Positions 757 through 9,570 of a DNA stretch of 64,000 bases are shown in pieces (the first letter of the stretch is position 1; the number at the start of each line of letters is the position of its first letter). The position numbers and the translations under genes are program-made. This DNA comes from an uncultured Bryobacteraceae bacterium (lineage in GTDB: Bacteria; Acidobacteriota; Terriglobia; Bryobacterales; Bryobacteraceae). The stretch spans positions 1-64,000 of the forward strand of contig CALJAM010000002.1 of NCBI GenBank assembly GCA_938027685.1. Reading direction: 5' to 3'. The notes under the pieces were generated by a model. The model had not been told where the DNA came from and searched no databases. It worked only from the letters and a program-made list of their open reading frames with translations.

Positions 757-960
757 GACCCTTCAATGATAGGTTGCGGCGCCCAACCCGCTCAACCAGG
801 GTCGGCAAGCTTGCGGACTGGGCTGCCCGCCGTCGTCGCGGTGTATCATCAAGTTAGCCACGCGAGATGGTGAATCAGTGGGGCTTTGTGAAGTGCGATG
901 TGGTGGTTAGCGACTTCATTCGGTGAGTCTTCGATCCGCCGGCCTAAGGAACCGTTGCGG

Positions 961-3303
961 GTGCTGGGTATTGATCTGGGTACGACCAACTCGACGGTGG
1001 CGGAAGTTGTCTGGTTGCCAAGCGAAGCGGAGCCCGGTCCGGTGCGTTGCCTGACTGTGGAGCAACCGACGAGTGCCGGCCGTTACATGCACGTGTTGGT
1101 TCCCTCCGTGGTGGCTATACGAGAGAACGGTGAGACATGGGTGGGGGAGGGCGCCAAGCGGCTGCGCTCGCTGCCCGAAGCGGGCATCGAGGAGTACCGG
1201 AGCTGGTTCGCCGAGACCAAGAACGACATGGGCATCCGGCGGACGTACCATCGGGCACCGGCCGGATTCCGCTCGGCGCGGGCGATCGCGCGGCACATTC
1301 TCCGATTTCTTTACGAGGCGGCGCTTGCCGAATCGGAGATCCCGCCGGCCCGGGTCGTGGTCACCGTCCCGGCCAGCTTTCAGCTTGCGCAGCGCCAAGA
1401 TACGGTAGATGCAGCGCAAGGCGCATCCATCCAGCTCAGCGGGGGAGATCTGCTGGACGAGCCCGTGGCCGCCTTTCTGGCCTATTTAAACAAGCACAGA
1501 GCGCAGATTGAAGAACTCCTGCCGGCGCATTCCGGGACGAAGCGCATGCTGGTGTTCGACTTCGGCGGCGGCACCTGCGACGTGGCCATCTTCCGTCTGG
1601 GTCGCGATGAGCGGAACCGGTTAACCGTGGCGCCCCTCAGTGTCTCGCGCTACCACAGGCTGGGCGGCGGCGATATTGACCGGGCCATCATCCATGAGGT
1701 CCTGCTGCCGCAACTGCTCGAGCAGAACGGGCTTGTTCCGCAGGATCTGGATTACGAAGACAAGCGTCACGTCATTCAACCGGCTTTACAGGGAATCGCA
1801 GAGTCGCTCAAACAGAAGCTTTCGATCGAGGTCGCGCGTCTGAAAGCGCTGGGGCGCTGGCAGACGCTCGACAAGACCGCTCTGGTGGAGAGGCACCCGG
1901 GGCGAGTGTCGATCAAGGTGCGGCAACGCGAACTCTCGTTCCAGTCGCCGAGCCTGTCGCTGCCGCAGTTCGAAGCGGTTCTGGGCCCCTTCCTGGAACG
2001 GGATCTGTTGCTGCCGCGCGAGGATGACTACCGAGTGACCTGTTCAATCTTCGCCCCGATCGAAGACGCATTGAGTCGCGGCGGGCTCGGGCCCGAGGCC
2101 ATTGACCTCTGCCTGCTGGCGGGCGGCAGCACTCTCATCCCGCAGGTGCGAGAGGCCATCGCCGACTATTTTCCGAATGCAAGGCTGCTCTTTTTCGAAG
2201 ACAAAGAGGATGTACAGACGGCAATCGCGCAGGGTGCCGCTCTCCACGCGCTCAGTCTCGCCCTGACTGGCCGGGGCATATTCCAACCGATCGCCCACGA
2301 TGCCATATACCTGGAGACACGGCAGGGAGCGCTGCCACTCATCGTAGCCGGGACGCCCTTGCCGTTCCCGGCAGGGGATGGTTACGCGCGAAAGGACGAA
2401 TTGGTGGCGCCCGAGCAGATCGCCGCCGGCCAACAGGGGGCGATCCGGGTGCGGTTAATCGCAGGCGCGGAGCGTCGGGAGCTGTTCGAAAAGACCTGGG
2501 AGCTCAGGGGACCGATCCGGAAAGGGGAAAAACTGGTTCTGGAATACCGACTGGACGAAAACCAGGTGCTGTTTCTGAGGCTTTACCGGGAGGCCGCGGC
2601 CCAGGAAGGTGAGTTCACCGGACACGTGGAAAATCCCTTGAGCCACGTGGTCAACCCGTCGGCGACCCGGCGACGCATCCAGGAACTGGAAGAAATGCTG
2701 CGTACAAAAGAACTTTCTCGTGCGGAACAGCAGTGTTCGTTCGAGGAGCTGGGGGATCTGTACCGCGAGTTGGGCCAGTGCGAAAAAGCGCTGGCCTTTT
2801 ACCGGCAAGCGTTAGTTCGTGCGGAGGCCCCACCTGCATCTCTGCTGAACCGCATGGCCTTCTGCGCCCGGGACCTGGGCGACCGCGAGCGGGCAGAGAA
2901 GCTTTTCGGGCAGGCAGCTCAAGTGGAGTCCTGGTCTGGGACGTTTTTCAACTGGGCGCTGGCGCGCCTCAGGTGGGGCGACGCTGCCGGCGCGCTGGGG
3001 CTGGTGGAGCGCGCCATCGCCCTGGAGGATGATCCGCCCTACCGGGTGTTGCAGGCTCGCCTGCTCTACCAGTTGGGGCAAGTGGAACGGGCTCGGCGAA
3101 TCCTGGAGGAGGCGCTGCCTCGTTTTGCGCCCCCTGTAGTCTTGAATGAATTCGAGCTCTATTGGCTGGCTGAAGGCGCGCGCATGGCGGGAGACGGGGC
3201 GCTGCTGGCGCGGGCGGAGCAAATGCTTCGGCGCGCCAAGTCCGCTTCCACTCGGGCGGCTAGCGGCGTGCTCCCCGATTTGATGCGGCCCCCGCAAGGG
3301 TGA
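961..3303 (+). CDS. Hsp70-family ATPase fused to C-terminal TPR repeats
   Basis: A DnaK-like actin-fold ATPase. From the GTG at 961 it has the three Hsp70 nucleotide motifs: LGIDLGTTNS at the N-terminus (phosphate 1), DFGGGTCDVAIF near residue 200 (phosphate 2) and LLAGGSTLIP near 385 (adenosine). A divergent beta-rich region (about 450-570) stands where DnaK has its substrate-binding domain. The helical lid is replaced by about three or four tetratricopeptide repeats from about residue 592 (for example ELGDLYRELGQCEKALAFYRQAL). GTG 961 is preferred because Hsp70s begin at this motif and AAGGA lies 10 bases upstream; an in-frame ATG at 898 would add 21 unrelated residues. It is followed after 10 bases by a UvrD-like helicase and has no dnaJ or grpE beside it, so it is not the housekeeping DnaK. 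Role unknown. Confidence 0.85.
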   Translation: MLGIDLGTTNSTVAEVVWLPSEAEPGPVRCLTVEQPTSAGRYMHVLVPSVVAIRENGETWVGEGAKRLRSLPEAGIEEYRSWFAETKNDMGIRRTYHRAPAGFRSARAIARHILRFLYEAALAESEIPPARVVVTVPASFQLAQRQDTVDAAQGASIQLSGGDLLDEPVAAFLAYLNKHRAQIEELLPAHSGTKRMLVFDFGGGTCDVAIFRLGRDERNRLTVAPLSVSRYHRLGGGDIDRAIIHEVLLPQLLEQNGLVPQDLDYEDKRHVIQPALQGIAESLKQKLSIEVARLKALGRWQTLDKTALVERHPGRVSIKVRQRELSFQSPSLSLPQFEAVLGPFLERDLLLPREDDYRVTCSIFAPIEDALSRGGLGPEAIDLCLLAGGSTLIPQVREAIADYFPNARLLFFEDKEDVQTAIAQGAALHALSLALTGRGIFQPIAHDAIYLETRQGALPLIVAGTPLPFPAGDGYARKDELVAPEQIAAGQQGAIRVRLIAGAERRELFEKTWELRGPIRKGEKLVLEYRLDENQVLFLRLYREAAAQEGEFTGHVENPLSHVVNPSATRRRIQELEEMLRTKELSRAEQQCSFEELGDLYRELGQCEKALAFYRQALVRAEAPPASLLNRMAFCARDLGDRERAEKLFGQAAQVESWSGTFFNWALARLRWGDAAGALGLVERAIALEDDPPYRVLQARLLYQLGQVERARRILEEALPRFAPPVVLNEFELYWLAEGARMAGDGALLARAEQMLRRAKSASTRAASGVLPDLMRPPQG

Positions 3304-3313
3304 GGCGCGGACC

Positions 3314-4531
3314 ATGGGATGGCTGGTGCCACGCGAGGAACTCACTGCCGACCAGTTGCGGGCGGTCGAATTGAGTGTCGACCGTCATCGCGTGATCATG
3401 GGAGCACCCGGCTCGGGCAAGACCCTGGTTTTGCTGCACCGGGCCCGCTACCTGCTGGATCGCTACGGCTGGCCGCCGGAGCGCTTTCACATTTTCGTGT
3501 TCACTAACGTCCTCCACCAGTACATTCGGTCCGGGCTGGAAGACCTGGATTTGCCGAAACAGTGCGCGAGTACTTTTGACGACTGGTGCGTACACTACTA
3601 CGAGCGTTTCATCGGCCGGCGTTTGCCTTGGAACGCCGCTGAGAAGCAGCCCGACTACCGTTCCATTCGCGCCATCGTCCGGCAGCATGCCGCTGGCAAG
3701 CGCCTTTTCGAAGCGGTGATGGTGGATGAAGGACAGGATCTCCCGGTAGAAGACATCGCTTTTCTGGCCGGAGTCGCCAACCATGTGACGGTGGCGCTGG
3801 ACCGCCGGCAGCAGATTTATGAGGAGGGCGCCGAGGAACCGGAGATTTTGGGCGCTCTCAACTTGCGTCGCGGCGATGTGGCCTTACTCGATGCTTTCCG
3901 GTGTACGGAATATATTGTCCGCATCGCCAGCGAGTTCCTCCCGGATCCACGCGAACGTGAGGCTCTCCTGCACCAGGCCCGCATCGGATCGAAAGATCGT
4001 GAAACGCCCCTGCTCTATCTGGCTGCCGACTTCGAGGACGAGAGGAACCGGGTGCTGGAAGCCGTTCGCGAGCGCCAATTAACGGACCGCTCGATTGCGC
4101 TGCTTTTCCCGCGCAAACGGCAGGTCGAAGGTTTTGCCCGATGGCTGCGTAGTGCCGGAATCGAGGTCGAGACGCGCAAGAGCGGCTTGGATTTCAACTC
4201 GCCCAGGCCGAAACTGCTGACCATCCACAGCGCCAAGGGCCTGACCTTTGATAGCGTCCTGCTGCCCAGACTGGTGGAACGCAGCTTTCCCGGGGTATTG
4301 CATGCGCGCCGGGAGAGACTGCTCTACGTGGCGATCACGCGCGCCACTCGATGGGTCTATCTGAGCGCCGTGGAGGATGCTGAAATACCCGAATTGACGC
4401 GACTGCGTGAGTTGGCCGGCGATGGCTCGGTCCCGCTGACCGTGGTGCGCGGCAGCCCGCGAGGGCATCGCAGTCGCGCCTCAGCACTTGCGCAGACCTG
4501 CCCAGCCGAGGACGGCCTGAGCATCCTTTGA
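3314..4531 (+). CDS. Short UvrD/Rep-like superfamily 1 helicase or ATPase
   Basis: A 405-residue P-loop ATPase with the helicase motifs of UvrD-like SF1 proteins: Walker A GAPGSGKT at 30-37, Walker B VMVDEGQD at about 135-142, an LDRRQQIY motif near 162 (motif III position), TIHSAKGLTFDSV near 302 (motif V) and YVAITRAT near 338 (motif VI). At 405 residues it is much shorter than UvrD or Rep (roughly 670-720) and appears to lack most of the 1B and 2B subdomains. It may therefore be a minimal translocase or a regulatory ATPase rather than a processive helicase. It starts 10 bases after the Hsp70-TPR stop and is almost certainly co-transcribed with it, which suggests the two proteins act together. 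The substrate, DNA or RNA, cannot be read from the sequence. Confidence 0.85.
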   Translation: MGWLVPREELTADQLRAVELSVDRHRVIMGAPGSGKTLVLLHRARYLLDRYGWPPERFHIFVFTNVLHQYIRSGLEDLDLPKQCASTFDDWCVHYYERFIGRRLPWNAAEKQPDYRSIRAIVRQHAAGKRLFEAVMVDEGQDLPVEDIAFLAGVANHVTVALDRRQQIYEEGAEEPEILGALNLRRGDVALLDAFRCTEYIVRIASEFLPDPREREALLHQARIGSKDRETPLLYLAADFEDERNRVLEAVRERQLTDRSIALLFPRKRQVEGFARWLRSAGIEVETRKSGLDFNSPRPKLLTIHSAKGLTFDSVLLPRLVERSFPGVLHARRERLLYVAITRATRWVYLSAVEDAEIPELTRLRELAGDGSVPLTVVRGSPRGHRSRASALAQTCPAEDGLSIL

Positions 4532-4590: not shown

Positions 4591-6369
4591 GTGCAACTGG
4601 CCCCGCCGGACTGGTTCGTCATCGCACTGTATTTTGTGCTGAGCCTCGGCATCGGGCTGTACTACAAGGCCCGCGCCGGACGCAGCACGCAGGAGTTCTT
4701 CCTCTCCGGCCGCAACGTGCCCTGGTGGCTGGCGGGAACTTCGATGGTGGCCACCACCTTTGCCGCCGACACTCCGCTGGCCGTAACGGGTCTGGTGGCC
4801 AAGGGCGGGATCGCGGGCAACTGGCTTTGGTGGAACTTTGTGGCCGGTGGGATGCTCACGGTCTTCTTTTACGCCCGCTTGTGGCGACGCGCGGGCGTGA
4901 TGACCGACGTGGAGTTCGCCGAGATCCGCTACGCCGGGGCGCCGGCGGCCTTCCTGCGCGGCTTCCGGGCGTTGTATCTGGGCTTGCTGATTAACTCGAT
5001 CGTGCTGGGCTGGGTCAATCTGGCGATGGTGAAGATTCTCGAGCACGTGCTGGGAGTCAGTAAGGTCCAGGCTATCGCCATCACGCTGGGCATGATCGGC
5101 GTGACCTCGCTGATCTCGACGCTGTCGGGGCTCTGGGGTGTCCTGGTGACCGATTTCGTGCAGTTCGCCATCGCCATGAGCATGGTCATCGTGCTGGCCG
5201 TTTTCGCCGTCGACGCGGTGGGCGGCCTGGACGGTCTGTTGGCCAAGCTGGAAGCGCTGGACCGCGTGCGCGCGGCGGCCGGTCAACCCGGTTCCGTGCT
5301 GAGCTTCATTCCCGCTCCCGACTCGGCATGGATGCCCATGTTGACCTTTCTCGTTTACATCTCGCTCAACTGGTGGGCGACGTGGTATCCGGGTTCGGAG
5401 CCGGGCGGCGGCGGATTTGTAGCCCAGCGCATGTTTTCGGCTCGGGACGAGAAACATTCTCTGCTGGCCACGCTGTGGTTTCAGGTGGCCCACTTCGCTT
5501 TGCGCCCCTGGCCCTGGATCCTGACTGCGCTGGTGGCGCTGGTGCTGTACCCCGGACTGGCCGATCCCGAGGCCGGATATCTGCGCGTCATGCTGGACTG
5601 CATGCCGGCCTCTCTGCGCGGCTTGATGGTGGCGGCTTTCGCGGCCGCCTACATGTCCACCATCGCCACGCAACTGAACTGGGGCGCCAGCTACCTGGTC
5701 AACGACTTCTACCGGCGTTTCGTACGCCGCGAGGCGGCGGAGCGTCACTACGTGCTGGCCTCGCGCCTGGCCACGGTCTTCCTGACGCTGGTCTCGGCCG
5801 TGGTCACCTTCTACATGACCTCGATCGCCGCCGCCTGGAAGCTGCTTATTGTGACGGGGGCGGGCACCGGCGGCGTGCTTCTGCTGCGTTGGTATTGGTG
5901 GCGCATCAACGCCTGGAGCGAGGTCTCCTCGATGGTGGCGGCCTTTATCGTTTCCGTGAGCCTGCAACTGGTGTGGGGCCTGGATAGCGACGATCCGCTG
6001 GGCTTTGCCTGGATCATGATCGTCACGATCGGCATCACCACGGCGGTCTGGTTGACGACGACGCTGCTCACCCGCCCCGAACCGACCCAGACGCTGGTCG
6101 CCTTCTACCGCCGTGTGCGGCCCTCAGGGCGCGGATGGGCTCCGATTGCGCAGCTTGCGCCGGACGTGGAGCCGGAGTGCGAGGGATGGCGCAATCTGGC
6201 CGACGCGGCCGCGGGGTGCGTCTTGATTTACGGCGCGCTGTTCGGCGTGGGCAAACTGTTGCTGAAACAGACTGCCGTAGGTTTGGTTTTTCTGCTGGCT
6301 GCGCTGGCCGCCGGCGCTTTCATTTACCGCGATCTCAGCAGAAGGGGCTGGCATGTGGTGGCGCATTAG
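4591..6369 (+). CDS. Sodium:solute symporter (SSS family)
   Basis: An integral inner-membrane cotransporter of about 592 residues with the SSS pattern of long hydrophobic helices, an early YYKARAGRSTQEFFLSGR segment and WWLAGTSMVATTFAADTPL in the second helix region, which is typical of SSS proteins. Sugars, amino acids or osmolytes are possible substrates. GTG 4591 is chosen because the sequence upstream encodes an arginine-rich, non-family segment and a TATAAT sits just before it. A TTG at 4528, overlapping the helicase stop, is a less likely start. The 3' end overlaps the secreted glycosidase-like gene by 17 bases, which argues for coupled expression and an oligosaccharide or sugar-derivative substrate. 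Confidence 0.88.
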   Translation: MQLAPPDWFVIALYFVLSLGIGLYYKARAGRSTQEFFLSGRNVPWWLAGTSMVATTFAADTPLAVTGLVAKGGIAGNWLWWNFVAGGMLTVFFYARLWRRAGVMTDVEFAEIRYAGAPAAFLRGFRALYLGLLINSIVLGWVNLAMVKILEHVLGVSKVQAIAITLGMIGVTSLISTLSGLWGVLVTDFVQFAIAMSMVIVLAVFAVDAVGGLDGLLAKLEALDRVRAAAGQPGSVLSFIPAPDSAWMPMLTFLVYISLNWWATWYPGSEPGGGGFVAQRMFSARDEKHSLLATLWFQVAHFALRPWPWILTALVALVLYPGLADPEAGYLRVMLDCMPASLRGLMVAAFAAAYMSTIATQLNWGASYLVNDFYRRFVRREAAERHYVLASRLATVFLTLVSAVVTFYMTSIAAAWKLLIVTGAGTGGVLLLRWYWWRINAWSEVSSMVAAFIVSVSLQLVWGLDSDDPLGFAWIMIVTIGITTAVWLTTTLLTRPEPTQTLVAFYRRVRPSGRGWAPIAQLAPDVEPECEGWRNLADAAAGCVLIYGALFGVGKLLLKQTAVGLVFLLAALAAGAFIYRDLSRRGWHVVAH

Positions 6370-9210: not shown

Positions 9211-9570
9211 ATGCCCGTTTCTCGCCTGATTCAACTCATTCGTCGTGCCAAACCGTTGACGGTCGAGGAAGGACTGAACATCCTGAAGCGCGATCATTAC
9301 CGCTGCCAGTACTGCGGTCTGGATGGTTCGACCAGTTTCGAGAACTACCTGGTAATGACCGTGGATTTTGTAGTCCCACGGGCGAGGGGCGGCAAGAAGG
9401 AGTCCCGCAACTTGGTCACGGCCTGTCGGCCGTGCAACCTCATCAAGGGCCGGCGCGTGTTCAAGAACTTCGAGGAGGCCAAGGCCTACGTCCTCAAGCG
9501 CCGTGAGGAATTGCGTCAGGAATGGGAAAAACGCATGGCGCGGCTGAAGACTCACCCGGCGGGCGCCTGA
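9211..9570 (+). CDS. Small HNH-endonuclease-fold protein, first His replaced by Phe
   Basis: A 119-residue protein with the zinc-ribbon HNH (McrA/Cas9-like) fold. CxxC pairs stand at 32-35 and 72-75, and the core reads VDFVVPRARGG at 51-61 followed by NLVTACRPCNLIKG. In active HNH nucleases the first histidine follows the Asp (DHxxP); here position 53 is Phe. Metal-dependent cleavage is therefore doubtful, although DNA binding through the fold remains possible. The C-terminal 35 residues are highly basic and helical. A GGAG/GGAGG ribosome site precedes the ATG, and a CATACT -10-like element lies at 9186-9191. It stands alone between unrelated genes. Confidence 0.8.
   Translation: MPVSRLIQLIRRAKPLTVEEGLNILKRDHYRCQYCGLDGSTSFENYLVMTVDFVVPRARGGKKESRNLVTACRPCNLIKGRRVFKNFEEAKAYVLKRREELRQEWEKRMARLKTHPAGA

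Follow-up and report, generated by a model that had tools for sequence, protein, structure and literature searches.

What an Hsp70 chaperone would do directly in front of a miniature helicase is the question raised by a locus from an uncultured Bryobacteraceae bacterium of the phylum Acidobacteriota (assembly GCA_938027685.1, contig CALJAM010000002.1, positions 1 to 64,000); this whole stretch of 64,000 nucleotides is referred to as the window. On its forward strand, open reading frame 1 (ORF1; 898..3303, 801 aa) encodes an Hsp70 that carries tetratricopeptide repeats (TPRs), hereafter Hsp70-TPR, and ORF2 (3314..4531, 405 aa) encodes a minimal UvrD-type superfamily 1 (SF1) helicase, both assigned from profile matches and structural models; the two frames are open, on the same strand and separated by 10 bases. 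The genes are inherited together as a tight tandem, have, by the Hsp70 tree, passed between phyla, and stand repeatedly in defence loci. Whether they form a mobile two-gene anti-phage (or invader/stress-response) module, in which the Hsp70 holds and gates the helicase, is judged to be evenly poised.

Distribution of the gene pair

The preliminary description of this locus treated the two genes as one unit, and the pair is not confined to one species. The helicase is the next gene in 25 of the 30 Hsp70-TPR loci with downstream sequence (20 of 24 in the main family, 5 of 5 in Bacteroidota and 0 of 1 for the locus L050). These pairs come from at least eight phyla, namely Acidobacteriota, Neomarinimicrobiota, Bdellovibrionota, Hydrogenedentota, Chloroflexota, Bacillota, Armatimonadota and Bacteroidota, as well as from unplaced bacteria; for the Acidobacteriota genomes with G numbers the phylum was deduced from locus L036, which is the same contig as the copy in genome G116. 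All 24 measured junctions are same-strand with a spacing of −7 to +27 bp, and a 4-bp overlap is found in 14 of them. L046 stands outside the adjacency count, as its contig ends inside the Hsp70, and L036 was dropped as the same contig as L032. A wider contig scan, limited to the best 80 of 516 relatives and with DnaK-like proteins towards the bottom, added Neomarinimicrobiota, Bacteriovoracaceae, Hydrogenedentota, Anaerolineales, Smithellaceae, Bacillota, Armatimonadota, Deltaproteobacteria, Thermomonas and Gemmataceae; it also gave the Bacteroidota members, a distant branch at 24-28% identity.

Hsp70-TPR is rare within the phylum of the window, being found by profile search (E ≤ 1e-40) in 9 of 396 genomes, and in 2 of 150 within the order; this cut-off was chosen after inspection of the list, and the search's own threshold of 1e-25 gives 16 genomes. 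It is equally rare in two further phyla (3 of 296 genomes, and 1 of 251, the centre genome itself), and each of the counts 9/396, 3/296 and 1/251 includes the genome at the centre of the search. A close helicase at E ≤ 1e-40 occurs in 10 of the 396 genomes, the same nine and G242; the helicase of G242 matches only profile residues 150-386, its N-terminal part is missing and no Hsp70-TPR lies near. A helicase without its Hsp70 is thus met once in the 396 genomes, and as a piece. Six more genomes have weak helicase matches (1e-26 to 1e-31), which were attributed to other proteins of UvrD type. The pairing exceeds chance (Fisher 1.7e-17 for co-occurrence across the 396 genomes), the helicase profile, A4, having been built partly from eight of the nine Hsp70-TPR genomes. 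A plasmid collection gave no match at 1e-35; in a phage collection 11 records matched, none over more than 80% of the query, and those with annotation are DnaK or HscA. In viral contigs no Hsp70-TPR relative was confirmed, and four weak helicase matches at 23-31% were seen.

Co-inheritance and transfer between phyla

Pairwise distances among the Hsp70s correlate with those among the helicases (20 pairs, r = 0.92; 16 main-family pairs, r = 0.66; none of 5000 permutations reached these values), as expected for co-inheritance, a correlation that does not itself show contact between the proteins. A tree of 20 main-family Hsp70s does not allow the ten Acidobacteriota rows to form a single clade (p-AU, the approximately unbiased test, 8e-93), and G116, which belongs to the window's own family, has a copy that falls with Hydrogenedentota (support 95/93 in this tree and 99/94 in a 27-row tree). 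Because the tested Acidobacteriota copies are not monophyletic, these phylogenies indicate that the pair moves horizontally between phyla, as a unit. GC content at third codon positions is slightly low in both genes (0.744 and 0.722, against a mean of 0.79 with a standard deviation of 0.05 in 33 long ORFs), which is a weak sign of transfer.

The clade test left out seven of the 27 rows of the Hsp70 alignment (A10) as long or distant, namely L154, L045, L047, L048, L049, L040 and L030, the last an Acidobacteriota row; A10 itself is without L153 (in-frame stop), L044 and L050. The truncated helicase of L026 is part of the helicase alignment A4 and is left out of A9; those of L023 (truncated), L039 (contig end) and L040 (in-frame stop) are in neither.

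Defence context

Neighbours of 21 of the 25 pair loci were compared with the PADLOC-DB models; L032, L039, L040 and L043 were set aside as short contigs or, in one case, a near twin of L041. The scan covered 113 proteins within 4.5 kb and was read from the best 25 of 242 families at 1e-15, after which selected neighbours were scanned singly, some of them slightly beyond 4.5 kb. Restriction, DISARM-like, BREX-like, Hachiman and DarTG genes lie near at least 8 of the 21 loci. In G207 (L029) DrmD lies 30 bp downstream of the pair and is followed by DpdE/DrmD-like, DrmMI and PDC-S19 genes, while G412 (L031) has a IIG/DrmMI-type enzyme, an Orf5/HEC-06 protein, an SspC/BrxC-like protein and BrxL. 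A PLD-helicase lies upstream both in G367 (L026), with a type ISP enzyme, and in G717 (L153), with a IIG enzyme and DUF3800; the pair of G543 (L033) is flanked by a IIG-type methylase upstream and NERD-UvrD downstream. HamA and HamB lie downstream in L042, type I restriction genes with a C3a193 helicase are divergent in L154, and DarT and DarG are found on the opposite strand, 1.3 kb away, in L034. L155 has RecQ-like matches to DpdF models, which were left out of the count as housekeeping.

Controls were drawn from genomes with Hsp70-TPR, in one set of 11 loci (119 proteins) and another of 17 (96 proteins); among the matches listed for these 28 loci, none is to a restriction, DISARM, BREX, Hachiman or DarTG gene. 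Known defence genes are therefore more frequent around the pair (8 of its 21 loci, as against 0 of 28 control loci among the matches listed; Fisher 4.5e-4), an enrichment that is sensitive to how control matches are counted. The first control set is without ORFs longer than 1600 aa (one ORF dropped), the short control loci L169 and L170 were unused, and ORFs were called by a simple longest-ORF rule, so that those of neighbours and controls include some that are spurious or cut off by the end of a contig. The preliminary description had offered stress, defence or complex remodelling as roles; the defence part gains support from the 8 of 21 loci, the patchy rarity of the pair and its horizontal transfer, and draws none from the window itself.

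Several observations weigh against a defence module of this kind. No defence gene was recognised among the scanned neighbours of the window copy, and none was assigned in a further 12 of the 21 loci, the neighbours not each having been scanned singly. The control negatives rest on the best 25 of 41 and the best 25 of 45 families, and single control matches to PDC-S01, PD-T4-6/kinase, mads, MkoA and GajB/UvrD models were regarded as generic. Since the match to PDC-S01 reached 1.2e-150 in one control protein, a stricter count would include a minimum of one control locus; with one, three or four included, the contrast falls to Fisher 0.003, 0.027 and 0.057. Of the 25 pairs, some have a broken helicase (truncated in L023 and L026, interrupted by an in-frame stop in L040), and that of L039 runs off its contig. 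Hsp70-TPR has no adjoining helicase in L030, L038, L044, L045 and L050; since a search of the genomes of these loci, and of L046, for a full-length close helicase at another site gave nothing but the two G367 pieces and one weak match, Hsp70-TPR can exist alone.

The pair might instead serve stress response or repair in an ordinary way, without any part in defence, and its defence neighbours would then reflect shared genomic islands only; the 13 of 21 loci without an assigned defence gene would fit this, as would the metabolic look of the window neighbours. This explanation has to set aside the contrast with the 28 control loci and the several loci in which defence genes are same-strand and closely spaced, and is considered unlikely, though not negligible. 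The same-strand placement could instead mark Hsp70-TPR as a dedicated folding or assembly chaperone for large complexes (restriction, DISARM, BREX), with the helicase as client or accessory: the pair is same-strand beside DrmD in G207, type ISP/IIG enzymes in G367 and G717, BREX-like genes with BrxL in G412, and IIG/NERD-UvrD in G543. Such a role is improbable, as the pair also occurs in the window and other loci with no recognised adjoining complex, the neighbours vary between loci, and the residues for docking J-proteins are changed, as described below.

The Hsp70-TPR protein

The Hsp70 had been described as keeping its nucleotide motifs and exchanging its lid for TPRs, and Pfam, the structural model and residue alignment agree. 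The Pfam match to HSP70 scores 88.9 bits and is strongest over residues 22-310; several TPR models match within residues 591-744. In the AlphaFold model (predicted local distance difference test, pLDDT, 87.9) residues 20-583 form a DnaK-like nucleotide-binding domain (NBD; 952..2283) and a β-sandwich resembling the β-part of the substrate-binding domain (SBD-β; 2284..2646, about model residues 463-583), which together superimpose on DnaK 7krv_B with Z 33.0 over 471 aligned residues at 3.6 Å. A linker helix and five TPR hairpins follow at the position of the Hsp70 lid (2662..3243, model residues 589-782; the helix hairpins span residues 608-782), and no α-helical lid (SBD-α) is found. Since profile and model both give an NBD and SBD-β followed by TPR hairpins, ORF1 is predicted to retain the substrate β-sandwich, the exchange being limited to the helical lid. 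Translation may start at the ATG at 898 or at the in-frame GTG at 961, the start given in the preliminary description, which directly precedes the ATPase motif.

The NBD carries K108, E188, D221 and T226, which an alignment to DnaK of the same genome places as the equivalents of DnaK K70, E171, D194 and T199, together with switch residues P158 and R166, the equivalents of P143 and R151. All six are retained in 23 of 23 main-family proteins and in every Bacteroidota member with a letter at the position; one Bacteroidota protein has a gap at the K70 equivalent. The equivalent of DnaK R167 is D or E in 22 of 23 main-family proteins, and that of linker residue D393 is P in 21 of 23. In DnaK the first four residues are catalytic, P143 and R151 form the relay or switch, and R167 and D393 dock J-proteins; with the equivalents of the first six kept and those of the last two replaced, Hsp70-TPR is inferred to work as an ATPase independently of ordinary J-proteins. 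An altered residue of the SBD arch was set aside, as the alignment is loose there. PADLOC-DB holds no good model for the protein (best 15.5 bits, PDC-M61B).

The extreme C-terminus of Hsp70-TPR displays a conserved G-x-L-P motif (ORF1 residues 788-796, window approximately 3259-3285), with P793 present in 23 of 23 main-family rows; the model gives short strands here (pLDDT approximately 80) after a disordered stretch. Loss of a TPR groove asparagine was considered as a mark of the proteins without a helicase and rejected: N685 is kept in 27 of 27 rows, and the loss of N651 in L030 is shared by the paired L041 and L043.

The minimal helicase

The earlier characterization of ORF2 as a 405-residue SF1 helicase with most of its 1B and 2B mass gone holds for both its motifs and its model. 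The protein matches the UvrD N- and C-terminal domains (Pfam) and has the SF1A motifs I, II and IV-VI with their catalytic residues, including Walker A/motif I (GAPGSGKT, 3401..3424), Walker B/motif II (VDEGQD, 3722..3739), motif V (TIHSAKGLTFD, 4220..4252) and motif VI (LLYVAITRATR, 4319..4351). The AlphaFold model (pLDDT 90.3) aligns 356 residues to the 645-residue UvrD 4c2t_B at 3.0 Å (Z 35.0); it has no 2B insertion, and 1B is a short remnant of approximately 44 residues between motifs Ia/Ib and II by manual count, so the 1B and 2B accessory domains of UvrD and Rep are lacking. The nearest PADLOC models are NERD+UvrD (C3a187) at 86.9 bits and then GajB at 73.9.

HelD also ranks high in both the profile and the structure comparison (43.0 bits to HelD_BACSU; Z 27.1 to 8q3i_H). 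A transcription or RNA-metabolism rescue unit, in which the helicase removes stalled RNA polymerase or RNA like HelD and the Hsp70 binds nascent chains or RNA, would draw on this likeness, and the accessible part of the CoCoNuT account predicts RNA binding for related chaperone domains (PMC11090510). The UvrD/PcrA and NERD-UvrD/GajB profiles outscore HelD, however; the 405-residue model shares the 1A/2A core of the RNA polymerase recycling motors HelD and HelR and is without added arm domains, and the patchy mobile distribution would be odd for a housekeeping function; RNA rescue is likewise improbable.

The last 22 residues of ORF2 (4463..4528) are disordered in the model and finish in a conserved acidic-hydrophobic end, here EDGLSIL. 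The final residue is L, F, I or Y in all 21 complete helicases, even where identity drops to 21-25%; acidic residues mostly precede it, and position −6 is acidic in 15 of 21. The same ends occur in 44 of 232 neighbour and control ORFs and in 5 of 27 Hsp70 tails. An ending that all 21 share and few comparison ORFs have points to a conserved C-terminal binding motif. By analogy with eukaryotic TPR-EEVD binding, the TPR groove of the partner Hsp70 is the obvious candidate dock; the tail also recalls the SSB tail and the β-clamp motif.

A proposed mechanism

If the pair is the module suggested here, Hsp70-TPR and the helicase would form one complex, with the acidic-hydrophobic tail of the helicase held in the TPR groove, as in the eukaryotic arrangement with the roles swapped. 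The Hsp70 retains its ATPase and interdomain switch, and its cycle would be driven by the helicase, or by some ligand such as a peptide on SBD-β, rather than by DnaJ, because the residues that dock J-proteins are lost. Binding of a phage or damage signal may then change the nucleotide state, by which the helicase would be released or loaded; with no autoinhibitory 2B to hold it back, it could start translocating immediately, stripping or remodelling invader nucleic acid or else exposing this to an adjoining nuclease or modification system. Complex formation through tail and TPRs, ATP gating and the effector role of the 2B-less helicase are proposals, and the conserved helicase end and correlated distances make the physical coupling in the earlier notion of a chaperone-type sensor joined to a motor somewhat more concrete. 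The complete version, in which a J-protein-independent Hsp70 holds the helicase by its tail and an invader-derived SBD-β ligand triggers the ATP cycle that switches it on, the whole being a mobile immune module that acts alone or heads DISARM- and BREX-like operons, is doubtful and is put forward tentatively.

This arrangement meets difficulties of its own. The distance correlation leaves shared descent and interaction unseparated, no invariant basic clamp residue is present in the TPRs of the Hsp70-TPR alignment, and the helicase tail could bind something other than TPRs; the phosphate-loop T11 position is P in 1 of 23 main-family Hsp70s (two others have gaps). A toxin-antitoxin-like or abortive-infection unit, with a harmful helicase restrained by Hsp70-TPR, is the least probable of the alternatives, for although the absence of 2B, the tight gene overlap and the lone survivors (Hsp70 alone in five loci, a close helicase alone only as a piece in 1 of 396 genomes) could fit it, simple decay would explain the survivors too, and G314 and G367 retain truncated helicases beside open Hsp70 genes.

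Relation to known systems

Hsp70-TPR shares with DnaK and other Hsp70s the NBD and SBD-β fold, the ATPase residues and the P143/R151 relay; it differs in the five TPR hairpins that replace the lid, in the replaced equivalents of Arg167 and Asp393, and in the lack of any dnaJ or grpE match on the window's contig. ORF2 has the 1A/2A core and helicase motifs in common with UvrD/PcrA/Rep, NERD-UvrD (PADLOC C3a187) and GajB, and is set apart from UvrD, NERD-UvrD and GajB by the absent 2B, the vestigial 1B, the lack of a nuclease domain and the acidic-hydrophobic tail. Where GajB of Gabija has GajA, the partner of ORF2 is an Hsp70; no OLD-type GajA nuclease adjoins the window pair, as the Hsp70 precedes the helicase and a symporter comes after.

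The accessible part of the CoCoNuT account describes CnuD, a protein with Hsp70-type NBD and SBD in a defence operon, with degenerate Walker-A-like motifs and, as partners, McrB/McrC homologs with HEAT-like repeats (PMC11090510); as far as that part goes, Hsp70-TPR differs in keeping the ATPase residues, in having TPRs as its repeats and in being paired with a UvrD-type helicase. No McrB-type GTPase or CnuC was found among the scanned window neighbours, the contig being cut upstream and no genome-wide search having been made. In the portion available, the account of predicted conflict systems with GAP1-N2 GTPases describes Hsp70 genes, some with DnaJ- or TPR-fused proteins, in systems where the GTPases are central and GrpE is encoded (PMC7159879); neither these GTPases nor GrpE were recognised at the pair. 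An Hsp70 paired with a UvrD-type helicase does not appear in the available parts of the CoCoNuT (PMC11090510) and GAP1-N2 (PMC7159879) accounts. ARMADA includes a GajB-like UvrD protein, and its main text does not contain the word "Hsp70" (PMC12458937). A literature search that left most subscription papers outside its reach found no description of the pair.

Surroundings of the window pair and other loci

The first base of the window is the first base of its contig, and only 897 bases precede the pair. By Pfam, its neighbours are a divergent gene for a CBM9-domain protein upstream and a sodium:solute symporter downstream; a small HNH protein (119 aa; Pfam HNH 41.5 bits) is encoded at 9211-9570, approximately 4.7 kb downstream. 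No dnaJ or grpE had been noted alongside the pair, which is correct for its contig, C2; the genome's own copies sit on C3, C4 and C6.

In G367 (L026, 2-856 and 974-1723) a transposase gene, IS3-type by eye, adjoins the truncated helicase, and a C-terminal helicase piece lies on another contig (C114, 34359-34910), as if an insertion had split the gene. The Hsp70 of G717 (L153, 9288-11729) and the helicase of L040 (2533-3234) each have an in-frame stop in these assemblies. One Bacillota metagenome-assembled genome (G548) carries two separate copies, L039 and L155, and on the Anaerolineales contig L037 a second Hsp70-TPR start (5528-5848) lies approximately 2 kb after the first pair; this second Hsp70 fragment (L037:5386-5856) was dropped from the neighbour set. 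The deltaproteobacterial Hsp70-TPR of L044 (9902-12997) is 1031 aa long with an extra C-terminal stretch, is not accompanied by a helicase, and has neighbours that are nif-like by eye. In the Bacteroidota branch a third gene (387-522 aa) follows the helicase (L047, 3290-4453; L048, 13531-14898; L049, 12796-14364; L153, 12905-14308), and its products in L048, L049 and L153 have no Pfam match. A weakly TerB-like small protein comes after the third gene in L049, and L154 has an unlike third gene of 606 aa.

Significance

If the proposed mechanism is true, an Hsp70 would have been taken over to regulate an immune helicase as the other half of one system, a recruitment not found in the literature search and possibly a categorically new mechanism. 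It would account for an Hsp70 that bears TPRs where its lid belongs, and the pair would be a compact two-gene system for understanding how a chaperone ATPase cycle gates a DNA or RNA motor; it would also be a recurring, so far unrecognised component added to DISARM-like and BREX-like loci.

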